Notes under the pieces: model-generated
What the model was told of the DNA's origin: nothing
What the model saw: only the letters and a program-made list of their open reading frames with translations
Databases searched by the model: none
Position numbers and translations under genes: made by a program
Assembly (NCBI RefSeq): GCF_009733595.1
Contig: NZ_WOFH01000003.1
Coordinates: forward strand, 62,001-126,000
Reading direction: 5' to 3'
DNA from: Actinomadura litoris
GTDB taxonomy: Bacteria > Actinomycetota > Actinomycetes > Streptosporangiales > Streptosporangiaceae
DNA length: 64,000 nucleotides
Shown: positions 10,380-56,692 of the stretch, piece by piece
How the letters are laid out: every line of letters starts with the position of its first letter
Position numbering within the stretch: position 1 is the stretch's first letter

Positions 10380-10547
10380 GACGTCACAATGCGGCCACAA
10401 AAGGAGGGGAGATCTCCGAACCCGCTGGATCGCCACTTCGGACTGACCTGCGGACGGGGCGGGGCGCGCAGCCCCGACGCACGGGGGGTTCCGGGCGTCC
10501 CAGAGGTGCCGTGCGGACCCGCCGGGACCGCGCTGCGACGGCCACCG
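10380..10547 (+). repeat. left arm of a ~165-bp inverted repeat flanking hpf
   Basis: This segment starts GACGT, then GCGGCCACAAAAGG, and ends GCGACGGCCACCG. It is repeated in reverse complement at 11839-12002. By eye the two arms differ at only about four or five substitutions plus a 6-base and a 2-base indel. The arm contains a small palindrome (GGAGATCTCC) and a GC-rich hairpin near GGGGCGCGCAGCCCC. No coding function is evident. Confidence 0.85.
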
Positions 10548-10973
10548 ATGACGGTCAGTGAGTATTTCCTCGGCTCACCCCCCTGACATTCGTGGCGGAA
10601 GGGGTTAGCGTTCCTGACATGGCACCCGCCCGGGTCCGTGGTTGCGCTGGATCGCAGTGCTCATCAGGAGCACGGCAGACGATCCGGCTAGCCGATGCCA
10701 GGCGCAGGCGAAACGGCCCACGTAAGGCGACTTCTCGTCGACCGATCACGGTGCGCCTTAGAGGTAAGTCCTGCCCCGTCGAGGGATCCGACATCCTTCG
10801 AACCGGGAGAAGGGCAGTAGTGGCGAGAGCGCCGCGAGCCCCTCAGCAGGCGGATGTGGGGACGAAGACCAGGTCGGCCGGGCGGGTGCGACCCATCGTC
10901 CTGTGGAGCCCGACCGGAGCCTGCATGGCTCCGGCTCGGGTGGGCAACGCAATCGGGAGAAGGGGGGTCCCGC
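10548..10973. other. gene-free leader region of hpf
   Basis: About 425 bases inside the inverted repeat and upstream of hpf. No convincing ORF is present. Several short inverted repeats occur (for example around TGCTCATCAGGAGCA), so a structured leader is possible, but no known riboswitch class was recognised. Confidence 0.4.
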
Positions 10974-11609
10974 GTGGACATCATCGTCAGGGGCCGGCAC
11001 ACCGACATCAACGACAGGTTCCGCCGGCACGTCGACACCAAACTGGCCAAGATCGAGCGGTTGAACCAGAAGGTCATCCGCGTGGACGTGGAGGTGTCCG
11101 AGGAACGTAACCCACGACTGGCCGACCAGCGCGAACGGGTGGAGCTGACCATCCGCTCCCGAGGCCCGGTGATCCGCGCCGAGGCCGCCGCCGACGACCG
11201 CTACGGCGCCCTCGACCTGGCGCTCGACAAGCTCGAATCGCGGCTGCGCCGCGACGGCGAGCGGCGCAAGGCCCACGGCGGCAAGGCCCGCGCCAAGCTC
11301 ACCCCGGCGGAACCGCTTCCCGAGCCCCCGCTCGAAAAGGCACCCGTGGCACCGGCCAAGGAGCCCGCCGCCCAGAAGCCTTCGGAAGACGACCACATCG
11401 TCCCGATCCCCATGGAGGGCGACGGCCCCATCGTCGTCCGCGAGAAGTTCCACGAGGCCGAGCCGATGGGCATCGAGCAGGCCCTCTTCGAGATGGAACT
11501 CGTCGGCCACGACTTCTACCTGTACCGCGACAAGGCCACGGGCCACCCCTCGGTCGTCTACCGCAGACGCGGCTGGGACTACGGGGTCATCAGGCTCGTC
11601 GAGGAGTAA
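10974..11609 (+). CDS. hpf: long-form ribosome hibernation promoting factor (HPF/RaiA)
   Basis: 211 residues. The N-terminal ~105 residues are the S30AE/YfiA fold (VDIIVRGRHTDINDRFRRH and RVDVEVSEERNPR). A charged, Pro-rich linker follows, then the C-terminal dimerisation domain (about 150-211) with PMGIEQALFEMELVGHDFYLY and VVYRRRGWDYGVIRL, the hallmark of long HPF. Long HPF inactivates ribosomes in stationary phase by promoting 100S dimers. The GTG start is preceded by the purine-rich GAGAAGGGGGGT. It is unusual in being bracketed by near-identical inverted repeats. Confidence 0.96.
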   Translation: MDIIVRGRHTDINDRFRRHVDTKLAKIERLNQKVIRVDVEVSEERNPRLADQRERVELTIRSRGPVIRAEAAADDRYGALDLALDKLESRLRRDGERRKAHGGKARAKLTPAEPLPEPPLEKAPVAPAKEPAAQKPSEDDHIVPIPMEGDGPIVVREKFHEAEPMGIEQALFEMELVGHDFYLYRDKATGHPSVVYRRRGWDYGVIRLVEE

Positions 11610-11838
11610 CACCCCGCCGCGCAACGATCCCGAAGAACCGATCCCCACCCCATCGATCAACGCTGGCGCGGGCCGCGTGGTACGGATCCTCAACCCCGCC
11701 ACCGACCCGCGCCGGCAACACCCCAGCGCCTCGCCCGAGCCGAGGACCAGGCCCGCCGCGGGGAACCTCAACAAACGCCGAGCCACGGCGCCCCGGTAGT
11801 GGGTTGAGGGCGAGCCCGTGCCCTCGGGGGCGGCCCAG

Positions 11839-12002
11839 CGGCGGCCGTCGCAGCGCGGTCCCGGCGGGTCCGCACGGCACCTCTGGGACGCCTGGAACCC
11901 CCCCCGTGCGTCGGGGCTGTGCGCCCCGCCCCGTCCGCAGGTCAGTCCGAAGTGGCGATCTAGCGGGTTCGGAGATCTCCCCTCCTTTTGTGGCCGCACG
12001 TC
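11839..12002 (-). repeat. right arm of the ~165-bp inverted repeat flanking hpf
   Basis: Reverse complement of 10380-10547 with about 95% identity by eye. It ends six bases before the stop codon of the minus-strand hypothetical gene at 12008. The 1.3-kb interior carries only hpf. Confidence 0.85.
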
Positions 12003-12007
12003 AAGAA

Positions 12008-12604
12008 CTATGGATCAGGCCAGCCGGGTGGCCGGTCTCGCCGACGTAGCCGGCGGTGGGCGGTAGCGCGGGCGCGTCGTGTTCGTCCTGTGCCGGTGAG
12101 CAGGGCGAGGACGGCGGGTGCGGTCATTGTCTCGACGGCATTGCGCCGGCGGTGGGCGGTAGCGCGGGCGCGTCGTGTTCGTCCTGTGCCGGTGAGCAGG
12201 GCGAGGACGGCGGGTGCGGTCACTGTCTCGACGGCATTGCGCTGGAACCAGTCGGATGCGGTGGTGACTTCTTCTGCGGCCCAGCGTCCGCCCATGGTGA
12301 TCGATCTCAGCAGGGTCCACTCGTGCAGGCGGCGTGTGAGGAAGTCCAGTTCGCTGATCTGACCGGCCATGGTGTGCGCACAGTCCTCGAACCGCTCGTC
12401 GGGGAGCGGAAGCAGGCTTGCCGCCCGGTGGTCCAAGTGGCGGACCACCGCGGATTGCGCCATCGCCTGGTCCGGGTCGCGTAGGACGCCGGCTACCAGG
12501 TCGGCTTCTTCCGCCGCGCGGAGGATAGCCAGGTCCCGCAGGTACTGAGCGAATCGCTGATGCTCGTCGGGGGCAGGTCGTTCGTGTGCGTTGCGGCCGG
12601 CCAC
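12008..12604 (-). CDS. hypothetical protein with internal 32-residue duplication
   Basis: 198 residues, not recognised as a known family. The first ~130 residues are helical and soluble-looking (HQRFAQYLRDLAILRAAEEA). The C-terminal part holds two copies of a 32-residue unit (NAVET.TAPAVLALLTGTGR..), the product of a 96-bp tandem duplication. GTG at 12604 has an AAGGGAG ribosome site about 7 bases upstream, so it may be translated from here, but protein-like sequence continues upstream in another frame, which suggests that this is the 3' part of a frameshifted longer gene. It lies next to the inverted repeat. Confidence 0.5.
   Translation of the reverse strand: MAGRNAHERPAPDEHQRFAQYLRDLAILRAAEEADLVAGVLRDPDQAMAQSAVVRHLDHRAASLLPLPDERFEDCAHTMAGQISELDFLTRRLHEWTLLRSITMGGRWAAEEVTTASDWFQRNAVETVTAPAVLALLTGTGRTRRARATAHRRRNAVETMTAPAVLALLTGTGRTRRARATAHRRLRRRDRPPGWPDP
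12051..12242. repeat. 96-bp tandem duplication
   Basis: Units 12051-12146 and 12147-12242 differ only at one C/T position by eye. The length is a multiple of three, so the reading frame of the minus-strand gene is preserved. The near-identity points to a recent event. Confidence 0.9.
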
Positions 12605-12795
12605 GCGGCGGCTCCCTTCGGCCGCTCAACCGAGTGGCCTTGTTCGAGGCAGGCGCCGACCCGCGCCAATGCGGCGAGCCAGGAGGCGTCGACCTCCGCC
12701 TCCAACGCGGCAACGGGCATCCGCCGGGCCGCGTCGAGTTCGCCCGCGAGGGCGAGCGCCGCGGCGCCGGAGCCCTGGTCCCTCCTCGGACGATC
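12605..12795 (-). pseudogene. probable frame-separated 5' part of the hypothetical gene
   Basis: On the minus strand, in a different frame from 12008-12604, the sequence reads as a typical helical protein (ALALAGELDAARR, ALEAEVDASWLAALARVGA). It has no start codon after the TGA at 12796-12798 until ATG 12720. Past 12604 this frame loses protein-like composition and stops at 12493, just where the 198-residue frame takes over. A frameshifted gene with a damaged 5' end explains this best; two small overlapping genes are an alternative. Its 5' part coincides with the 54-bp gdh-like segment. Confidence 0.4.
12727..12780 (+). repeat. 54-bp segment matching the gdh gene (53/54 bases)
   Basis: This stretch is identical, except for one base, to 55253-55306 inside the glutamate dehydrogenase gene, where it encodes residues from GRIEFAREGERRG to AGALV. 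The match ends sharply on both sides. In the present place the gdh sense strand is the plus strand, while the local damaged gene reads on the minus strand. Confidence 0.85.
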
Positions 12796-12840
12796 TCACC
12801 GATCAAAGGACCGTCTCGCTGTTTTGATGGGTCTTGCGGG

Positions 12841-13248
12841 TCAGGCTTGGCGGCCTAGGGGCTTGCGGTGGGGGTGGATCTTTCGGTGGCCGATCCGCCA
12901 GCCTTGGGGTGTGCGCAGGACGGTGTCCTCGTAGGTCACGCTCCCGGCGGTGCCGTCGGCGTTGACGCCGATCCCCTTGGACCGCGCCTGTACCCGGTCG
13001 TCGGCGATCTCGCTGAGGACGATGTTGGTGACGTGGTGGCCGACCGGGTTGAGCTCGCCCAGCGCGCGTCCGGCGGCGGCGCAGGCCGCGACGCCCAGCA
13101 AGGGCTCCTGACCGAACTCCGAGACGTCGTAGACGACGTCGGGAGTGAACACCTCGTCGAGTCGGTCCAGTTCGCCGCTGTCGCATAGGTGGCCGTGCAT
13201 GGAGATCAGCTCGGTGATCGCGGTGCGGTCGTCGGCGGTGAACGTCAT
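12841..13248 (-). CDS. SnoaL/NTF2-like family protein
   Basis: 135 residues with the cone-shaped alpha+beta-barrel layout of SnoaL-like/NTF2 proteins: an N-terminal helix with DRTAITELISMHGH, the FTPDVVYDVSEFG strand-helix region, VGHHVTNIVLSEI and a C-terminal WRIGHRKIHPHRK. Family members include polyketide cyclases, isomerases and dehydratases with small hydrophobic substrates; the substrate here cannot be told. ATG at 13248 has GGAGGAG five bases upstream. It is transcribed divergently from the TetR gene across two palindromic sites, so it is probably the regulator's target. Confidence 0.85.
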   Translation of the reverse strand: MTFTADDRTAITELISMHGHLCDSGELDRLDEVFTPDVVYDVSEFGQEPLLGVAACAAAGRALGELNPVGHHVTNIVLSEIADDRVQARSKGIGVNADGTAGSVTYEDTVLRTPQGWRIGHRKIHPHRKPLGRQA

Positions 13249-13294
13249 CGCTCCTCCAGACCGGGGCGGCCGTCCCTCGACCTCGTTGGGAACG

Positions 13295-13314
13295 AAGTGG
13301 GGAGCTCCCCGCTT
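13295..13314. promoter_or_regulatory. TetR-type operator 1
   Basis: AAGTGGGGAGCTCCCCGCTT is a near-perfect palindrome between the SnoaL-like gene and the divergent TetR gene. With site 2 it gives the consensus AAGYGGGGANNTCCCCGYTT. Two such sites in the divergent promoter strongly suggest binding by the adjacent TetR protein. Confidence 0.7.
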
Positions 13315-13331
13315 AGTGTCACGAGTAAGGT

Positions 13332-13351
13332 AAGCGGGGAAGTCCCCGTTT
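13332..13351. promoter_or_regulatory. TetR-type operator 2
   Basis: AAGCGGGGAAGTCCCCGTTT is a second copy of the palindrome, with its centre 37 bases from that of the first. It lies about 20 bases upstream of the TetR start codon, fitting autorepression plus control of the divergent SnoaL-like gene. Confidence 0.7.
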
Positions 13352-13371
13352 AGCAACCAAGGGAGGCAGGG

Positions 13372-13932
13372 GTGGTGCCGTCCTCCGGGCGGGCACGCCG
13401 CGCGGACGCCGAGCGGAACGCCCGGCTGCTGGTGGCGGCGGCCAGGGAGCTCTTCGACGAGCGCGGACCGGACGTCGCCCTGGACGAGGTGGCCCGGCGC
13501 GCCGGGGTCGGCAACGCGACCCTCTACCGGCACTACCCGACGCGCGGTGACCTGCTCACGGCGGTCTACGCCGACGAGATCGCCGCGCTTTGCGACCGAG
13601 GCGCCGCTCTCCTACGCGAACCGGATCCCGGTGAGGCCCTCTTCACCTGGTTGGAAGACTTCGTCGTCCACGTGGCCACCAGGCGGACGCCGGCCTTCGC
13701 CGGTGTCGACGGCGAGCGGCGCACCGCGCTGTTCGAGCGCTGGCACGCCTCGCTGACCTCGACCGCGGAGAGGTTGCTCTCCCGCGCCCAGGAGGCGGGC
13801 GCCGTTCGCGGGGACCTCGCCGTGGCCGAGGTGCTGGCGCTCGCCAACGCGGTCGCTGTTTCGGAGACCGATGTCGGCCGGGCGCGCCGCCTCCTCGACA
13901 TCCTTCGCCACGGCTTCAGCGGGCCCGGCTGA
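13372..13932 (+). CDS. TetR/AcrR family transcriptional regulator
   Basis: 186 residues. The N-terminal helix-turn-helix is standard (LLVAAARELFDERG, VALDEVARRAGVGNATLYRH, then YPTRGDLLTAVY). The C-terminal all-helical part resembles the SCO1-type ligand-binding region of actinobacterial TetR proteins, with WLEDFVVHVATRR. GTG at 13372 follows GGGAGG by a short spacer. The divergent SnoaL-like gene and the two palindromes between them are its likely targets; the ligand is unknown. Confidence 0.92.
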   Translation: MVPSSGRARRADAERNARLLVAAARELFDERGPDVALDEVARRAGVGNATLYRHYPTRGDLLTAVYADEIAALCDRGAALLREPDPGEALFTWLEDFVVHVATRRTPAFAGVDGERRTALFERWHASLTSTAERLLSRAQEAGAVRGDLAVAEVLALANAVAVSETDVGRARRLLDILRHGFSGPG

Positions 13933-14010
13933 ACCATTGGACGGTGATCGGGGGACGGGCGGGTCCAGGGCGGATGGCGTCTTGTCGCGGCCGCGCTGGC
14001 TGGCGGGGCC

Positions 14011-14054
14011 GCGGGTGCTTGTTACGCACGGCGCGGGTGCTTGTTACGCGGGGC
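14011..14054. repeat. 22-bp tandem repeat, two copies
   Basis: GCGGGTGCTTGTTACGC occurs at 14011 and 14033 with a 22-base period, just upstream of the methyltransferase start. No function is evident; it may mark replication slippage. Confidence 0.6.
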
Positions 14055-14088
14055 GCGGTCGCAGGGGTGTGCCCTTTACGGTGAGCGG

Positions 14089-14703
14089 GTGCGTCAGGCG
14101 GATCTGGAACCGTATTGGAACACCAACGTCGCCCGTCACCCCGGCATTCTGCGCGCCGTTCCGGAGGGGTGCGGCGACGCGCTGGACGTTGGTTGCGGCG
14201 ACGGGCTGCTCGTGCGCAAGCTGGCCGGGAAGGCGAAGCGCGTGACCGGTGTCGACAGTTCGCCGAGGATGGTCGCCCACGCTCGCCGGCTCGCTGCCGG
14301 GGAGCCGGATCTGGCCTTTGTCGAGGGCGACTTCCTCACCGCCGATCTGCTGGACGAGGGCTATGACTTCATCTGTTCGGTGTCCGCGATCCATCACATG
14401 GACTTCGAGGCGGCCCTGACCCGGATGCGCGAGCTGCTGCGCCCCGGCGGCACGCTGGTGGTGGTCGGGTTGGCTCGGGAGAGCAGCCCGACGGACTGGG
14501 CGGCGTCGATCGCGGTCGCCCCGGTCGTCCGGGTCATCAAGGTGCTGCGGCGCGCGCACGGCCCGGACGGAATGCCGGTCGCCAATCCGCAGATGAGCTA
14601 CGGGCAGGTGCGGACCGCGGCGCGGCGGCTGCTGCCGGGCTCGCGTTACCAGCGCCACATCCTCTATCGATACTCGCTGACGTGGGAGAAGCCCGTCCGC
14701 TAA
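14089..14703 (+). CDS. class I SAM-dependent methyltransferase
   Basis: 204 residues. Motif I is LDVGCGDGLLVRKLA, followed by VTGVDSSPRMVAHAR (motif post-I), FVEGDFLTADLL and the motif II/III region with RMRELLRPGGTLVVVGL, i.e. a Methyltransf_11-type SAM-binding fold. DLEPYWNTNVARHP at the N-terminus is common in actinobacterial members of unknown substrate. GTG at 14089 is chosen; the frame opens at TTG 14041 but those residues overlap a tandem repeat. It stands alone, with no neighbour that would identify the substrate. Confidence 0.88.
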   Translation: MRQADLEPYWNTNVARHPGILRAVPEGCGDALDVGCGDGLLVRKLAGKAKRVTGVDSSPRMVAHARRLAAGEPDLAFVEGDFLTADLLDEGYDFICSVSAIHHMDFEAALTRMRELLRPGGTLVVVGLARESSPTDWAASIAVAPVVRVIKVLRRAHGPDGMPVANPQMSYGQVRTAARRLLPGSRYQRHILYRYSLTWEKPVR

Positions 14704-14890
14704 TGGCAGCGCCTCACAGCGGTGGCCTCTGGGGGTGGGGCGTGCTCGGCGGCGATGGGCGGTCACGTCATCGCGGCGGCTGCCGAACGTTCGTCGGAGT
14801 TCCGATTCACCGCGGCCTCGTGTGGCCGCTGGTGCAACCGCGTTGGGGTGGACGGGGTTCCGGGCGTGACTGCGGTGAGAGGAGCAGACG

Positions 14891-15388
14891 ATGGGCATGG
14901 GGCCTTCGGTGGAAGACCGGTACGTGTCAGGTGACGCGTGGGCGGTGATGGAGAAGTTCTACGCGGCCGAGGCGGCGTATGTGGCGGCAGGCGGGTACGG
15001 CAAGGCCGACTATGGGCCGGCGGCCGCCTGTCTGGATCCGGAGGTGGTGCTGCACCAGGCTCCGGGCCTGCCGTTCACGGGCACCGGGACGTGGCGCGGC
15101 CGGGACGGCCTGGAACGCTTTCTGACCCGCTTCAGCGAGGTCTGGGAATCGATGGAGTTCCTGGAGCAGGAGCACTGGGGCGACGGCGGCACCGTCGTGG
15201 TGCGCAATCGGGTGCGGTTCCGGGCCCGGGCCACCGGCCGGGAGGTCGAGACTCTGATCCTGCAGCAGATCAGGGTCCGGGACGGGCGCATGCTCGAATG
15301 CCGTCCCTTCTACTGGGACCAAGCCGCCATCGTTGAGGCGTGCGGCTGGACGGGGCCGAGCGGGGAAGGCGAAGTTTCCATCGGGTGA
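14891..15388 (+). CDS. SnoaL/NTF2-like family protein
   Basis: 165 residues. The segment VMEKFYAAEAAYVAAGG, then PEVVLHQAPGLPFTGTGTW, GRDGLERFLTRFSEVWESM and VRDGRMLECRPFYWD has the helix-strand order of SnoaL-like proteins with an open hydrophobic pocket. ATG at 14891 follows a GAGAGGAG ribosome site. It is not closely similar to the other SnoaL-like protein at 12841. The function is unknown; no operon partner is present, and a hairpin about 220 bases downstream could end the transcript. Confidence 0.8.
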   Translation: MGMGPSVEDRYVSGDAWAVMEKFYAAEAAYVAAGGYGKADYGPAAACLDPEVVLHQAPGLPFTGTGTWRGRDGLERFLTRFSEVWESMEFLEQEHWGDGGTVVVRNRVRFRARATGREVETLILQQIRVRDGRMLECRPFYWDQAAIVEACGWTGPSGEGEVSIG

Positions 15389-15609
15389 GGTGCGCGTCGC
15401 GGCGTCCGGGTGCTGGCATCGTTTTTCGTCAGAACGGGTCGAGCGCCTTCCGCGGAGAATTCGGGGGCTTTCGAGTTCCCGGATGATCGCCATTGGAGGT
15501 CAAGGCCGCCCACCGGTGTGTCGGAGTGGTCGCTGACGGTTGAGGGGGAGGACCTCGCTGCGGCGGCTCCTGCGGGCGGGCGTGAGCACTGGTCAGCGGC
15601 TTGTGCCGG

Positions 15610-15635
15610 AAGGTTCCGGTCAACTCTGGAACCTT
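15610..15635 (+). terminator. hairpin terminator candidate
   Basis: AAGGTTCC and GGAACCTT form an 8-bp stem around a 10-base loop, with a short T run (CTTTCT) at the end. It lies 220 bases beyond the SnoaL-like gene at 14891. Confidence 0.45.
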
Positions 15636-16087
15636 TCTGGAGGCGCAGCAGTTCACTCGTGGACGGGCGCGATCCCTGAGGTTGCGCGGGGTTCGCCCGT
15701 GATCAGGTTCTTTGGCGGGCGTTGCGCGTGATGCCCGGAAACTCCGAAGAATAGGGCTCCGGTTCTCGTCCGATTTCAGAGGTTTCGAAGGGTGCGAGAA
15801 CCGCCGAGCCGCTCTAGGCCGTGGCCGGGGAGGTGAATCGGTTTGGGTGAGGTGGGTGCCGGCGATTTTCGCGTCGCCGGGAATCGAATCGGTCGAGCCT
15901 TTCCTGGTCCGAGCGTGCCCTGCCGCCCCGGCGCGGGCAAGGGTCGGGGCGAAGCGTGCGAACCCGGCATCCTGCGGAGGCGACAGGCGCGGGCGGCGCC
16001 CCCGGGGGCGCGCGGGCAGGGCCGTCCAGGGAAATCCGGATGATTCCAGGGCGCGTCAGGGGGTGTGGTCGCCCCGCAAGTAGAAGA

Positions 16088-16187
16088 CACTTGGACCAGC
16101 GAACCGTACAAGCCGGGGCAACCCCGGAGCCGGTGGGTCGCCCGGGAGTGATTCCGGGGGCGCGGCGGTCCGGGCGACCCCCAAGTG
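16088..16187 (+). ncRNA. candidate three-way-junction structured RNA
   Basis: An outer 7-bp stem (CACTTGG 16088-16094 with CCAAGTG 16181-16187) encloses two further hairpins: CCGGGG-CAA-CCCCGG at 16113-16127 and an 11-bp stem GGGTCGCCCGG (16135-16145) with CCGGGCGACCC (16170-16180). The whole forms a compact three-way junction about 115 bases upstream of the LuxR-regulator start. It could be a leader RNA, an independent small RNA or a terminator-like element. It was not matched to a known family. Confidence 0.35.
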
Positions 16188-16301
16188 CAAGAAATTGGAC
16201 GACCCAGGGCCGTAAGGTGCCGGAACCGGGCTCGTCCAGGCCCGGTACAGATCATTGACAGCGAAGGGGGGAAGCGGCGTCTCCTCCACGCCGCGACTCA
16301 G

Positions 16302-17069
16302 GTGAGCGAGAAACCCGAGGCTCGCGGCGCCGCGGCCGTACCCCGTCAGGCCGGCGCCGGTGCGACGCCCGCCGCCCGTGAGGCGGCGGGTCCGGCCGGG
16401 GCCGCCGACCCGATCCGGGTGCTCATCGTCGACGACCACGCGCTGTTCCGCAGGGGTCTGGAGATGGTCCTGCAGGGCGAGGACGACATCGAGGTCATCG
16501 GCGAGGGCGGCGACGGGCACGAGGCGGTCGAGATGGCCGGCGACCTGCTGCCGGACGTCGTGCTGATGGACATCAGGATGCCCCGCCGCAGCGGTATCGA
16601 GGCGTGCACCGCCATCAAGGACGCGGCGCCCAGCGCGAAGATCGTCATGCTGACCATCAGCGACGAGGAGGAGGACCTCTTCGAGGCGATCAAGGCGGGG
16701 GCCAGCGGCTACCTGCTCAAGGAGATCTCGATCGACGAGGTGCCGCAGGCGGTCCGCGCCGTCCACGGCGGGCAGTCGCTGATCAGCCCGTCGATGGCGT
16801 CCAAGCTGATCACCGAGTTCGCCGCGCTCGCCAAGCGCAGCGAGGAGCGCACCCAGCAGGTGCCGGCGCCGCGTCTCACCGAACGTGAGATGGAGGTGCT
16901 GCGGCTGGTCGCGCGCGGGCTCGGCAACCGGGAGATCGCCCGGGAGCTGTTCATCTCCGAGAACACCGTGAAGAACCACGTCCGCAACATCCTGGAGAAG
17001 CTCCAGCTGCACTCGCGGATGGAGGCGGTCGTCTACGCCGTCCGGGAGAAGCTTCTGGAGATCACCTAG
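16302..17069 (+). CDS. NarL/LuxR-family response regulator
   Basis: 255 residues. After a ~40-residue low-complexity N-terminus comes a receiver domain ([18 protein letters not shown], phospho-Asp in [15 protein letters not shown], and Lys in the GYLLKE segment) and a C-terminal LuxR helix-turn-helix ([35 protein letters not shown]). It closely resembles the regulator encoded near secA in Streptomyces. GTG at 16302 is chosen because the frame upstream lacks protein character; no strong ribosome site is visible. No sensor kinase gene is adjacent, so it is an orphan in this window. Confidence 0.93.
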
Positions 17070-41446: not shown

Positions 41447-42300
41447 AGCGCGCAAGTTCAACCCTCCCCAGGCAGCAGGACACCCCTGCCGCGGGCGATC
41501 TGGGGTGCGGCCGTCGGCAGCGGACGACGGGGAGCGAAAAGCGCACAGCTTCTGGAACCGCCAGCAGACGGCGGAGAACGGCAAGGATGCGGCTTCTGAG
41601 ACCCGCAGGAGGCGGCGGAGAGCGGGGAGCGGGAAGCGCGCAGTTTCTGGAACTCGCAGCAAGCGGCGGGGAGCGGCAAGGACGCGGTTTCTGGAACTCG
41701 CAGCAGGCGGCGAGGAGCGGGAAGCGTGTGGGGGCAGCAGGAGGGGAGCGCGGAGCGGGGAACGGACGGCGGGTGGCGGGGAGCGGGCAGTGGAAAAGGG
41801 GCAGCGCGCAAGTTCCGAAACCCTCCGCAGGCAGCAGGACGCCCCTGCTGCGGGCGATCAGGGGGGCCGGGCGTCGGCGGCAGACGATGGGGAGCGGCAA
41901 GGACGCGGTTTCTGGAACCCCCAGCAAGTGGCGGGAAGCGGCAAGCGCGCAGCTTCTGGATCCGCAGCAGGTGGCGGGGAGCGGGAAGCGTGTGGGGGGC
42001 AGCAGGAGGGAAGGGCGGAGCGGACGGCGGAAGCGGGGAGCGGGCGGTGGAAAAGGGGCAGCGCGCAAGTTCGGAACCCTCCGCAGGTAGCAGGACGCCC
42101 CTGCTGCGGGCGATCAGGGGGGCCGGGCGTCGGCGGCAGACGATGGGGAGCGGCACGGACGCAGCTTCTGGAACCTGCAGCAGGTGGAGGGGAGCGGGAA
42201 GCGCGCAGCTTCTGGCCCCGCAGCAGGCGGCGGGGAGCGGGAAGCGTGTAGGGGGCAGCAGGAGGGGAGCGCGGAGCGGGGAACGGACGGCGGGTGGCCG
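41447..42300 (+). repeat. hierarchical tandem repeat array (long units with internal ~50-bp subrepeats)
   Basis: Three long units begin with GCGCGCAAGTTC near 41449, 41804 and 42061. Each has the same order: a CCCTCC.CAGG spacer, a hairpin of the form GCAGCAGG-ACGCC-CCTGCTGC (for example 41831-41851), a GGGCGATC..GGGG block, a CGGCGGCAGACGATGG-like block, then two to four copies of a ~50-bp subrepeat (GCAAGGACGCGG, TTTCTGGAAC, CGCAGCAGGCGGC, GGGGAGCGG). Each ends in GAAGCGTGTGGGGGGCAGCAGGAGG and a GGAGCGGGCAGTGGAAAAGGGGC-like tail. The third copy lacks the tail. Confidence 0.85.
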
Positions 42301-42305
42301 GGAGA

Positions 42306-42480
42306 GGGAGTAGGCGGCGTGCAGAGCGGGTCGGGGGCGACCGGTCGTGGGCGGTGGGGCGTAGGGATTCGAGAGAAGGGCGGCGGGAGTGGGGCGCGGG
42401 TAGTGGGTGGCGGTGAGTAGGGAGTAGGCGGCGTGCAGAGCGGGGCGTGGGCGGTGGGGCGTGGGGATTCGAGAGAAGGG
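42306..42480 (+). repeat. second repeat pair, ~114-bp period
   Basis: GGGAGTAGGCGGCG begins at 42306 and again at 42420; in both copies GTGCAGAGCGGG follows, then GGGCGGTGGGGCGT and GGGATTCGAGAGAAGGG. The first copy has an insertion around CGGGGGCGACCGGTC. The segment adjoins the end of the first array. Confidence 0.75.
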
Positions 42481-42780
42481 TTGCGGTGGGGAGCGGGGCA
42501 GCGGGAGGGGCGGCGGGGCAGGAGGGGGCAGGGCTGGGGTTGGTGGGGTGCCCATGGGCGTCGAGGTTCGGCCGGTGGCGGGTGAGTGAGGGGTGGTTGG
42601 GTGTCGCCCTTCGAGGTTGGACGGTTGGAGGGGCGGAGCAGGTGGGGGCGCATGTCTGCGGCGCCCTGATTTGTGTGGTCGGGCAGGGGCCACGGGACTG
42701 CGGCATCGGTATTCGGCTGCGGACGGGCGGGTAGGGCACCGCACGTTGACAACGCTGTCGGATTCGTAGGGAGCGACCAG

Positions 42781-50388: not shown

Positions 50389-51808
50389 CACCGCCCCCCG
50401 CTGATACCACCCTCCTCGCTAGGGGTTTCCAGCGGTCAGGGCGCAGAACGCGGTCACGAGGCGCCCTGCCCCGCTCAACGCGGCCCCTCCCCGCTGACGC
50501 CACTCCTACCAGCTAGGACGGCCTTCCAGCGGTCAGCGCGCAGAGCGCGGCGGGGAAAGGGAGCCTCTCCCTGCTGACGCCGCTCCTACCAGCTCGGGCG
50601 GGTCTCCAGTGGTCAGGCGCGCAGGGTGCGGCGGGGGCCTCTCCCTGCTGGCGGCGCTTCTACCAGCTCGGGCGGGCTTCCAGTGGTCAAGCGCAGGGGC
50701 GCGCGCGATCGTGAGGCGCCCCTCCCCGCTGACGCCGCCCCTCCCAGCTCGGGCGGGTCTCCAGCGGTCAGCGCGCAGGGCGCGGCGGTAGGGCGCCTCT
50801 CCCTGCTGACGGTGCCCCTCGCAGCAAGGGCGGGTCTCCAGTGGTCAGGCGCAGGGCGCGGTCGTGGGGCGTCTCTCCCTGCTGACGCCGCCCCTCCCAG
50901 CTTGGGCGGGCTTCTAGTGGTCAGCGCGCAGGGCGCGGCGGCGGGGGCCTCTCGCTGCTGACGCCGCTCCTACCAGCTCGGGCGGGCTTCCAGTGGTGGT
51001 CAGGCGCAGGGGCGCGCGCGGTCGTGGGGGCCTCTCCCTGCTGACGGTGCCCCTCCCAGCTCGGGCGGGTCTCCGGTGGTCAGGCGCAGGGCGCGGTCGG
51101 GTGCGTGCGCGTCTCGCGCGTGTGGTCATCTGTGGATGCCTGGTCAGGTCGCCTCCTTCCGGGGTTCGCGGCGCGGAGACCTACTCAGGGTCTCCTGGCG
51201 GAGCCGATCAGCCCGGACTCCTTCCGGGTTCGTAGCGCAGATTGCTCTGAGTGTTCCGCTGCGATCGCGACGTCGCTTGGGCGGCGACGTTGTTGCGGGG
51301 TGGCCGTGCTCACGCGGGGCGGGGGACCAAGCCCTCGGTGGTTCGCATCCCGCGCGGTCGCTGCCCTGCCGTATTTGGGCGCGGGTGTGTGGGCGGATGC
51401 CGGGTTGCGCGGGTTGTGAGCCTCCGGCCTGGTTTTCGGGCATGGGGACTGAGGGGTTCAGGGCTGTGGTTGGGGGGCTGGGTGGTTGCGATGGGGTGTT
51501 GTGGGGAGTGGAGGGCCATGGCTGGGTGAGCTGGCGGTTCTGGGCCTTGTGGCTGAGGGAGGGCGAGGCGGTGCGCGGACGGGGGAAGTGGCGGTTGGGG
51601 TGGGTTTCGGCCGCCGTCGTGTGTGCGGGCGGGGTGGGCGGACGGGCACTTCGGCGATCTTCGGGCAGGGGTGCTGGAGGGCCTGGCAGGGTGGGCAAGG
51701 CCACGTCCACCTCGGTGCCGAGCAGGTCGGCTTTGGGGGATTTCCTGGCTACGCTGGCGCAGTGAGCGGCGCCACAACGAGGTGGCGCATTCTCTAGGGG
51801 AGTTGTTG
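50389..51808. other. 1.4-kb gene-free region between kinase and gdh
   Basis: The first half is the nine-unit repeat array; the second half, about 51113-51808, is G-rich on the plus strand with many GGG-GGGG runs. No convincing gene occurs. The region ends in GGGGAG, the ribosome site of gdh at 51797. The annotated starts of all open frames here are repeat-derived or biased-composition artefacts. Confidence 0.7.
50400..51112 (+). repeat. nine-unit ~80-bp tandem repeat array
   Basis: Units are anchored on GCTGACG-like starts at 50400, 50493, 50573, 50647, 50728, 50805, 50881, 50957 and 51040 (spacing 74-93 bases). The consensus is GCTGACGCCGCTCCTACCAG, then CTCGGGCGGGTCTCCAGTGG, TCAGGCGCAGGGCGCGG, a variable GTCGTGGGG/GCGGGGG part and CCTCTCCCT. 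The central units are most alike and the ends more divergent, the usual pattern for expansion by slippage or unequal exchange. The first divergent unit starts at the stop of the kinase gene. Confidence 0.88.
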
Positions 51809-54800
51809 ATGGGCGGCAAGCTCGACCAAGCGAAGGACGACCTGCTCAGGAGGGCCGCGGAGACTTGTGCCCAGCGTCCCGGCGGTAAGGGCGAGGACGT
51901 GGAGGAGGCCCTCGCCTACCTCCGCCTCTACTACCGGCACGTGGCGCCCGAGGACCTGCTGTCGCGGGACCCCGCCGACATCTGCGGCCCGGCGATGGCG
52001 CACCGGCTGCTCGGTGAGGAGCGGCCGCAGGGGCGCGCGAAGGTGCGGGTGTTCACGCCGTCGCTGGAGGAGTACGGCTGGGACCCGGGGCACACGGTCG
52101 TCCAGGTCGTGACCGACGACATGCCGTTCCTGGTCGACTCGGTGACGATGGAGCTGAACCGCCACCAGCTCGCCACCCATCTGATCGTCCACCCCCTGCT
52201 CGGCGTGGACCGCGACGTCGCGGGCCAGATGCGGGCGTTCCGCGGCAAGCTCGACAGCGCCACCGACATCGACGAGTCGTGGATCCACATCGAAGTGGAC
52301 CGCACCAGTGACCGTGAGCGACTGGCCGCTCTCGAAAAGGATCTGCTCCGCGTCCTGCAGGACGTGCGGGTCGCCGTCGAGGACGAGCCGAAGATGCGCG
52401 CCCGCGCCGGGGAGATCGCCGCCGCGATCCGGGAGGCCGCGCCGCCGCTGCCCGCCAAGGAGCTCGCCGAGGGCGTCGAGCTGCTCGACTGGCTGGCCGA
52501 CGGGCACTTCACCTTCCTGGGGTACCGCGACTACACGCTGACCGAGGGCGGGGACACCGCTGAGGGGCGCGGGACGCTCGGGCTCCGCCCCGAGCCGGGC
52601 ACCGGGCTCGGCATCCTGCGCAACGACAAGCGCGAGTCCGACAGCTTCGCCTCGCTGCCCCCGGAGGTCCGCGAGAAGGCCACCGAGAAGCACCTGCTGG
52701 TGCTGACCAAGGCGAACTCGCGCTCGACCGTCCACCGGCCGCTGTACCTCGACTACATCGGGGTGAAGAAGTTCGACGAGTCCGGGGAGGTCATCGGCGA
52801 GCGCCGGTTCCTTGGGCTGTTCACGCACGTCGCCTACAGCGAGTCGATCGCGCACGTGCCCGTCCTCAAGCGCAAGCTCGAAGAGGTGCTGGAAGAGGCC
52901 GACTTCACCGCCGACAGCTACGACGGCCAGGACCTCATCGAGATACTGGAGAGCTACCCGCGCGACGAGCTGTTCCAGATCTCCGTCGACGACCTGCTGT
53001 CGATCTCGCTGGGCGTGCTGCGGCTGCGCGAGCGCAGGCAACTGAAGCTGTTCCTGCGCAAGGACCTGTACGGGCGCTACATGTCGTGCATGGTCTACCT
53101 GCCGCGCGACCGGTACACCACGCAGGTCCGGCTGCGCATCCAGCAGATACTGCGGGACGCGTTCGAGGGCGTCAGCGTCGACTACAGCGCGAACGTGACC
53201 GAGTCGATGCTCGCGCGGCTGCACGTGGTGGTGCGGGGCGAGCGCGGACGTCCGCTGCCCGACGTGGACGTGGACGACCTGGAGGCGCGGCTGGCGAACG
53301 CGACCCGCTCGTGGGGCGACGACCTGGCCGACGCGATCGTCGAGCAGTGCGGCGAGGAACGTTCCGGTACGCTCGCGCGGCGCTACGCGAACGCCTTCCC
53401 CGAGGGGTACAAGGCCGACTTCCCGGCCCGGACCGCAGTCGCCGACCTGCGTCGCCTCGACGAGCTGACCGGCGACGACGACACCTCGATCAACCTGTAC
53501 GAGCCCTACGGCGCCCAGCCCGGCGAGCGGCGCCTGAAGATCTACCGGCTGGGCGAGCCGATCTCGCTGTCGCGGGTGCTGCCGCTGCTCCAGAACATGG
53601 GCGTCGAGGTCATCGACGAGCGGCCGTACGAGATCGCGACCGGTGACGGTCGGCGGTACTGGATCTACGACCTCGGGCTGCGGTACGTCCCGCCCGTGGA
53701 CGTCCCGGAGGAGGCCATCAAGGGCCTGTTCCAGGAGGCGTTCACCGCGCTGTGGCGCGGCCGGATCGAGAACGACGGCTTCAACGCCCTCGTCCTGCAC
53801 GTGGGGCTGAGCTGGTGGCAGGCGATGATCCTGCGCGCCTACGCCCTGTACCTGCGGCAGACCGGCACCACCTTCTCCAAGCGCTACATCGAGCAGGTGC
53901 TGCTGCGCAACGCGCAGATCACCCGGCTGCTGATCCGGCTGTGGGAGAGCCGCCTCGACCCCTCGCTCGCGGGCGGTGAGGAGGAGCGCAGCCTCGGCAT
54001 CACCGAGGAGCTCCAGGGCAAGCTGGACGAGGTCGCCAGCCTCGACGAGGACCGCATCCTCCGTGCCTACCTGGCGATGATCCAGGCGACGCTGCGCACG
54101 AACCACTACCAGCACAAGCCCTACCTGGCGGTCAAGTTCGACCCGCAGGGCATCCCGGACCTGCCCCAGCCGCGCCCGACGTACGAGATCTTCGTGTACT
54201 CGCCGAAGGTGGAGGGCGTGCACCTGCGGTTCGGGTCCGTGGCGCGCGGCGGGCTGCGCTGGTCGGACCGGCGGGAGGACTTCCGCACCGAGATCCTCGG
54301 GCTGGTGAAGGCGCAGGCGGTGAAGAACACCGTCATCGTGCCCGCGGGTGCCAAGGGCGGGTTCGTCGGCAAGCAGCTCCCCGACCCCGCCGCCGACCGC
54401 GAGGCGTTCATGCAGGCGGGCATCGCCTGCTACAAGGACTTCATCTCCGGCCTGCTCGACGTCACCGACAACCTGGTGGACGGCAAGGTCGTCCCGCCCT
54501 CGAACGTGGTCCGCCACGACGGCGACGACACCTACCTCGTCGTCGCGGCCGACAAGGGCACCGCGACGTTCTCCGACATCGCCAACGGTGTCGCCGCCGA
54601 ATACGGGTTCTGGCTCGGCGACGCGTTCGCCTCGGGCGGCTCGGTCGGCTACGACCACAAGGCGATGGGCATCACCGCGCGCGGCGCCTGGGAATCGGTC
54701 AAGTACCACTTCCGCTCCCTCGGTAAGGACATCCAGAGCGAGGACTTCACCGTCGTCGGCATCGGCGACATGTCCGGCGACGTGTTCGGCAACGGGATGC

Positions 54801-56692
54801 TCCTGTCGGAGCACATCAAGCTGGTCGCGGCGTTCGACCACCGGCACATCTTCCTCGACCCGGACCCCGACCCCGCCGCCTCGTTCGCCGAGCGGCGCCG
54901 CGTGTTCGAGCTGCCCCGCAGCTCCTGGGCCGACTACGACACCTCCCTGATATCCAAGGGCGGCGGGGTCTTCCCCCGGACCGCCAAGTCGATCAAGCTG
55001 AGCCCGCAGATCAGGGCGGCCCTCGGCATCGAGGACGGGGTCAAGGCGCTGACCCCGTTCGAGCTGATCCGCGCCGTGCTCAGGGCGCCGGTCGACCTGC
55101 TGTGGAACGGCGGCATCGGCACCTACGTCAAGTCCTCGATCGAGAACAACGCCGACGTCGGCGACAAGGCCAACGACGCCGTCCGCGTGAACGGCGAGGA
55201 ACTGCGCTGCAAGGTGATCGGCGAGGGCGGCAACCTCGGCCTGACCCAGCTCGGCCGCATCGAGTTCGCCCGCGAGGGCGAGCGCCGCGGCGCCGGAGCC
55301 CTGGTCAACACCGACTTCATCGACAACTCCGCCGGCGTCGACACCTCCGACCACGAGGTCAACATCAAGATCCTCCTCGACCAGGTCGTCCGGGACGGGG
55401 AGCTGACGCGCAAGCAGCGCGACGGCCTCCTCTACGAGATGACCGACGAGGTCGGCCGGCTCGTCCTGCGGGACAACTACGCGCAGAACGTGACGCTCGC
55501 CGCGTCCCGCGCGCAGGCGGCCGCGATGCTGCACGTCCACGCCCGCCACCTGCGCAAGCTGGAGCGCGACGGGCGGCTCAAGCGCAGGCTGGAGTTCCTG
55601 CCCGACGACAAGGCCCTCGCCGAGCGCCGCCAGTCGGGCCTCGGGCTGACCAGCCCCGAGTTCTCCGTCCTGCTGGCCTACGCCAAGCTCACCCTCGACG
55701 CCGAGATCGTCGCCTCCGACCTCGCCGACGACCCGTACCTGGAGTCGTGGCTCGTCGACTACTTCCCGACCCCGCTGCGCGAGCGGTTCCAGAGCTACAT
55801 GGACCGCCACCCCCTACGCCGGGAGATCATCACCACCGCCGTGGTGAACGACCTGGTCAACAACAGCGGCTCCACGTTCGTGTTCCGGATGAACGAGGAG
55901 ACCGGGGCGTCCTCGTCCGACATCGCGCGCGCCTACCTGGTGGCCCGCGAGGTCTTCGAGATGCCGCGGTTCTGGCGGTCGGTGGAGTCGCTCTCGCACC
56001 AGGTCGAGGAGTCGACCCAGATCGCGATGCTGCTGGAGGCGCGGAAGCTGACCGAGCGCGGCGCGCGCTGGCTGCTGCACAACCGGCGGCCCCCGTTCGA
56101 CATCCGCGAGACGATCGACTACTTCTCCGGCGGCGCGGCCACGCTCAGCGGGCGCCTTCCGAAGGTGCTCGTCGGCCTGGACCTCGCCGCGTTCGAGCAG
56201 CGCAGGGACGGATTCGCCGAACTCGGCGTGCCGGACGACCTGGCCGAGCAGGGCGCGATGCTCGTCGCCGCCTACTCCACGTTCGACCTCGTGGGCATCG
56301 CTCACGAGACCGGACGCCCGGTCGAGGAGGTCGCCGAGGTGTACTTCGACCTCGGTGACCGGCTCCAGCTGTCCCGCCTCCGGGAGCGCATCATCGCGCT
56401 GCCCCGCGACGACCGCTGGCGCTCGATGGCCCGCTCCGCGCTCCGCGACGACCTGTACGCCGCTCATGCCGCCCTCACCCGCGACGTCCTCGTCACCAGC
56501 GAGCCCGGCGGGCAGCCCGAGGAGCGCCTGGTGCACTGGGCGGAGAAGAACCAGACCGCGGTGCTGCGCGCCCAGCAGACGCTCAGCGAGATCTGGGAGA
56601 GCGACAGCTTCGACCTCGCGACGCTCTCGGTCGCCCTCGGTTCCATCCGTACCCTCGTCACGGCGAGTTCCCTCCCGTCCACCGAGGCCTGA
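51809..56692 (+). CDS. gdh: NAD-specific glutamate dehydrogenase, large (180-kDa class)
   Basis: 1627 residues, matching the size of the 180-kDa class known from Streptomyces clavuligerus. The long N-terminal half contains ACT-like regulatory segments ([40 protein letters not shown]). The catalytic domain (about 780-1210) has [21 protein letters not shown], the lysine region [16 protein letters not shown], the nucleotide-binding [17 protein letters not shown] and [12 protein letters not shown]. It deaminates glutamate to 2-oxoglutarate, the step after PruA. ATG 51809 has GGGGAG upstream. It overlies a segment (55253-55306) copied at 12727. Confidence 0.97.
   Translation: [1627 protein letters not shown]
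55253..55306 (+). repeat. 54-bp gdh segment duplicated at 12727-12780
   Basis: Part of the catalytic region of the gdh gene ([18 protein letters not shown]). Its other copy differs at one base and is described at 12727. Confidence 0.85.

Follow-up and report, generated by a model that had tools for sequence, protein, structure and literature searches.

In short-patch double illegitimate recombination, a short piece of distant chromosomal DNA is set elsewhere; a 54-bp patch at the locus described here resembles such short distant inserts, whereas the 160-bp inverted arm at the same locus is longer than the patches known for that process, and junctions are only partly readable. In yeast, template switching or foldback priming at a break is reported to yield inverted duplications (PMC10622511), which are like the present case in that nearby sequence is copied inverted beside a rearrangement; here the copy is of 160 bp and lies 1.4 kb away, the host is a bacterium, and the mechanism is read from the scar alone. 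As for the genes concerned, PMC11477304 describes the order comF, raiA RNA, hpf as frequent, the locus lying downstream of comFC. The same gene order is found in the window (the whole 64,000-nucleotide stretch of Actinomadura litoris DNA analysed here), and in comparison with the raiA RNA-hpf loci described there only the flanking inverted copy stands out. Within the literature collection searched, no paper was recognised as dealing with this locus or with templated insertions in actinomycetes. The features concerned, in window coordinates, are as follows.

10390-10547, plus strand: left arm and donor copy, native to the spacer that precedes the raiA RNA
10546-10973, plus strand: block conserved in the genus, comprising a presumed promoter, the raiA RNA, and the leader of hpf, from BLAST against the loci of 29 relatives
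10625-10886, plus strand: raiA noncoding RNA (RF03072), cmscan 148.4 bits, E 6.9e-37, gathering score 101.3
10974-11609, plus strand: hpf, long ribosome hibernation promoting factor, with both S30AE Pfam domains (PF02482 and PF16321)
11839-11998, minus strand: right arm, a derived inverted copy of 10390-10547
12008-12604, minus strand: passenger ORF, no Pfam family, adjoining an IS256-type transposase in a relative (G002)
12049-12242, no strand assigned: 96-base tandem duplication, 98.98% identical over 98 columns
12604-12820, minus strand: decayed transposase of IS256/Mutator type that has lost its middle, so that pieces from the N- and C-terminus are joined
12727-12780, plus strand: 54-base patch inside the transposase remnant, a 98% copy of part of the NAD-glutamate dehydrogenase gene
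55253-55306, plus strand: source of the 54-base patch, within the ORF for glutamate dehydrogenase (51623-56692), 42.5 kb away

The two arms align over 160 columns with 96.25% identity (267 bits; E 2e-72; gapped BLAST), forming an inverted repeat far beyond chance and confirming the near-identical inverted copies that a previous sequence-only reading had placed at 10380-10547 and 11839-12002, with the true ends lying a few bases further in. Two overlapping ungapped segments are contained in the alignment (10390-10488/11900-11998, 98% identity; 10483-10550/11836-11903, 96%). The copies are distinguished by four substitutions, at left/right positions 10427/11961, 10468/11920, 10493/11893, and 10544/11842, and by a single indel, a 2-base insertion in the G run of the right arm (11904-11905); the previous count of four or five substitutions plus two short indels thereby holds for the substitutions and is reduced to one indel. 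In a self-BLAST of the whole contig C23 (787,632 bases; E<=1e-8, word 20), the arms were the sole inverted pair of at least 40 bp and at least 90% identity located less than 10 kb apart, self-palindromes aside. The RNA structure of the arm is nothing unusual (z -0.14), and a small frame of 65 aa over the left arm (10389-10583) matches no Pfam family.

The interior between the arms had been taken to carry only hpf; hpf is indeed enclosed, together with the raiA RNA, and both are intact by Rfam and Pfam. All 65 genus genomes, own included, have a match to hpf. Loci with hpf flanks of up to 1.5 kb were returned for 29 of the 64 other genus genomes, and the matches to the conserved block begin at 10505-10546 in 22 of these loci and further left in the remaining seven, the stretch of one locus (L053) ending near the start of the block. 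In some relatives the match is interrupted between ~10920 and 10950. A promoter is presumed to lie upstream of raiA within the conserved block; matches to the sigma-70 promoter consensus and to the terminator consensus were not found at the locus.

It had also been suggested that the arms are two copies of a genome-wide dispersed element. In the own genome (G000; 9.16 Mb, 36 contigs), the arm search at E<=0.001 returned these two copies and no other among the best 40 of 169 candidates scored. At E<=1e-6, with the best two candidates scored per genome, the arm was present in two of 341 family genomes, namely the own genome and that of Actinomadura terrae OS3-83 (G086), and the latter also had the only full-length match outside the own genome when all 65 genus genomes, own included, were searched with the best 12 candidates each; with these numbers of candidates (40 own, 12 genus, 2 family), weak distant copies may escape. 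The exact 26-letter pattern at the left end of the arm gave one match among the GTDB species genomes, again G086, the own record being possibly absent there. Weak arm matches were seen in 17 other genus genomes (up to 47.3 bits, 27-78 bp), which were counted as a group as presumed chance matches of GC-rich DNA, and a second match in G086 had 41.9 bits over 62 bp.

The full-length copy of G086 (C11:833044-833213; 84% identity over 171 bases) is located at the left-arm place upstream of hpf, and its flanks on both sides match those of the left arm in the window. Downstream of hpf in G086, no match to the right arm was found, and the right-arm flanks have no counterpart in that genome. Because the single full-length copy of this one outgroup genome sits at the left-arm place with shared flanks, and also because alignments from hpf leftwards enter the arm region in six further relatives (L028, L032, L038, L039, L042, and L047, to between 10404 and 10484), the sequence comparison points firmly to the left arm as the ancestral spacer and to the right arm as its derived inverted copy. 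A comparable inverted repeat within ~1.5 kb of hpf is absent from the loci of all 29 relatives; weak matches between the two sides of hpf, direct or inverted, occur in nine of them, with at most 36.5 bits and 50 bp versus 260 bits here.

Four differences over ~158 aligned bases separate the two arms, against 27 of 165 between the left arm and its G086 ortholog, and the arms are accordingly of recent, lineage-specific origin, bearing out the recent origin that had been proposed from their similarity. With G086 as reference, two changes are derived on the left arm, and two changes plus the indel on the right arm. Since the changes are split between the copies, independent drift accounts for them, and gene conversion, previously offered as the other explanation of the similarity, is not needed.

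Taken with the single full-length copy in G086, the locus has the native donor and the derived recipient of a locally templated inverted duplication, and we consider it very probable that the right arm arose by a one-off local event of this kind, after the split from the A. terrae OS3-83 lineage. About 160 bp of native spacer upstream of the raiA RNA would have been copied, in inverted orientation, to just downstream of hpf, the recipient region being the margin of an insertion, specific to this lineage, that separates hpf from a response-regulator gene. We infer that the most likely occasion for the copying was the repair of a DNA break or of a stalled replication fork, through either template switching or templated end joining. 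Two further copying events are recorded in the same strip, one bringing in the 54-bp piece from the gene 42.5 kb away and the other generating the 96-bp tandem duplication. The genome encodes Ku and may therefore be capable of end joining, but template switching during replication would produce an identical scar. The stretch 11605-11838 beside the right arm has no match in the 64 other genus genomes (E<=1e-5), so that no relative shows the site as it was before insertion; as far as the junctions can be read without it, no clear microhomology was seen at the arm ends.

The insertion itself is evident from the comparison with relatives. The response-regulator gene (16185-17069) is found after hpf in 14 of 14 other relatives examined (L088-L102 without L094; G086 apart), and the gap between the matched parts of the two genes is 134-628 bp in 13 of them, 2.0 kb in one, and 4.6 kb here. 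The spacer of 11610-16170, which separates hpf from the response-regulator gene, serves as an insertion site in this lineage. One half of it is held in common by the window and G086 and the other is not: 14051-16170 is largely shared, whereas 11618-14051 has only short weak G086 matches (e.g., two in the TetR gene, of 62 and 49 bp with 71-73% identity). In G086 the region after hpf differs from the window and, in our own reading, looks like a TetR-like gene plus a minus-strand SnoaL-like gene. A SnoaL gene and the TetR gene are also contained in the unshared part of the window, and the best DNA matches of the SnoaL stretch lie in other genus genomes (G023, G085, and G068; 85-86%), on contigs other than the hpf contig.

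Adjacent to the right arm is the passenger ORF, relatives of which are present in 17 of the 64 other genus genomes; the 96-base duplication forms an in-frame 32-residue repeat near its C-terminus. The previous description of the locus as having no transposase is correct for the interior, but not for the outside, where the decayed IS256-type remnant lies ~0.6 kb beyond the right arm. The identity of this remnant is based on its tblastx alignment to the G002 transposase (in L165), whose protein matches PF00872 at 209.6 bits; the two transposase pieces of the window alone match no Pfam family at E<=1, the corresponding piece of a relative in G068 reaches PF00872 below the cut-off (14.6 versus 21 bits), and the own genome has no match to PF00872 at E<=0.001. 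The 54-base patch has one match in G086 (C11:877776-877829; 94%), at about the distance from hpf expected for the donor.

Within the first 400 kb of the contig, seven duplicate pairs were found (at least 90% identity, at least 40 bp, E<=1e-10), one of which is a self-palindrome, and three of the other six are clustered within a single span of 942 bp here. The simulated chance of such a cluster is 0.0003, for a statistic that is post hoc and based on few events. Over the whole contig (E<=1e-8), 13 pairs including two palindromes were obtained, and the same three of the remaining 11 cluster with a simulated chance of 0.0008, which is likewise post hoc, involves few events, and counts two dispersed-repeat pairs. 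This self-comparison covered 787,632 of the 9,159,308 bases of the genome. Age and mechanism may not be the same for all three patches. A second cluster, at 569932-570133 of the contig, at first resembled another repair scar; it proved to be part of a repeat dispersed across the genus and is no longer counted in favour.

Other repeats were also noted in this part of the genome. A 584-bp direct repeat with 96% identity is located at C23:272979-273559 and 284243-284826, the copies being 11 kb apart. GC-rich arrays of imperfect direct repeats occupy 50468-51105 and 41502-42529 of the window; these comprise eight copies at 74-83 bp spacing and further families spaced 14 to 265 bp.

It is conceivable, albeit unlikely, that the right arm was formed during, or carried with, the insertion of an IS256-type element or island by hpf, an origin that overlaps with the local inverted duplication preferred above, the two not being exclusive. 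The right arm adjoins the passenger ORF at its hpf-facing end, and in G002 this ORF comes after an IS256-type transposase; the insertion is particular to this lineage. However, the sequence copied in the arm is host DNA from this same locus, and hence did not arrive ready-made from elsewhere, and neither ends of the element nor target duplications were recognised.

An arm that is itself a non-autonomous mobile element, MITE- or REP-like and inserted twice, would also be short, intergenic, and nearly identical in its copies, as observed, and the decayed IS256-type remnant is close by; nevertheless, we regard this as highly improbable. Two copies are present in the own genome, for which this reading is refuted, and the one full-length copy of G086 is at the left place. 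Plasmids and phages have no match to the arm at E<=1e-5, and terminal inverted repeats were not seen in the arm by eye, nor any of at least 20 bp, a pre-insertion site to be inspected for target duplication not being found among the 64 other genus genomes. A true dispersed repeat behaves differently, giving close to 40 matches per relative in three relatives (G086, G007, and G019) among the best 40 candidates; this is a repeat of ~150 bp located at L176:9890-10040 and L180:18560-18750 (near 569.9 kb and 658.6 kb of C23). A dispersed family of the arm was searched for in the own genome, the 65 genus genomes, and the 341 family genomes, and was rejected on finding two own-genome copies and one full-length copy in G086. 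The proposal of a composite mobile unit is not supported either, as the left arm occupies the same native place in G086 and the 160-bp arms are devoid of a transposase; two IS copies with transposase, as in the arms of a composite transposon, are not what flanks the interior.

Inverted arms of 160 bp at 96% identity can in principle serve rare homologous recombination, and the inversion of hpf had been proposed on the basis of the arms. We find it very improbable that recombination between them flips raiA and hpf as an invertible segment. The comparison of orientation in relatives, put forward as a check, speaks against it: a comF match precedes hpf on its own strand in 26 of the 29 loci, and longer stretches of G086 and G074 show the same order, so that hpf is oriented towards comF or the neighbours upstream of it as in the window in 28 of 29, the locus of L053 being too short to show it. 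In addition, nearly all of the conserved upstream block is located between the arms, and a flip would therefore move raiA, hpf, and the likely promoter together, without separating the block from either gene. Among 14 scanned ORFs in the interval from 3.1 to 19.6 kb (comF not included), no recombinase family was found, and the arms arose in this lineage only. The locus thus displays neither both orientations among relatives, nor a separation of promoter and gene, nor a recombinase in the ORFs scanned, as would be looked for in a phase-variation switch.

There is a similarly slight chance that the inverted copy has been recruited, either by pairing of the arms into a raiA-hpf panhandle that alters stability or raiA release, or that RecA-mediated flipping takes place at low frequency in the population. 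The panhandle would form in a transcript that started upstream of the left arm and continued to the end of the right arm, the two arms pairing to close it. An assembly artefact is also very improbable: the genome is a 36-contig draft, but the copies differ at four sites and one indel with the G086-like states split between them, and the locus is internal to the 787,632-base contig.

Returning to the one-off local inverted duplication, no sign was found that the right-arm copy moves, flips, or regulates hpf, and the copy is presumably without function and neutral for hpf. We regard it as a real but ordinary local inverted duplication beside a rearranged insertion. It serves mostly as a caution that a core gene can be flanked by near-identical inverted arms without there being a switch or a mobile unit. 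It also offers a rather recent case, with a close outgroup that carries a single copy, in which a chromosome has been patched from its own sequence, and several such cases in a Ku-bearing actinomycete could help to infer the routes of break repair.
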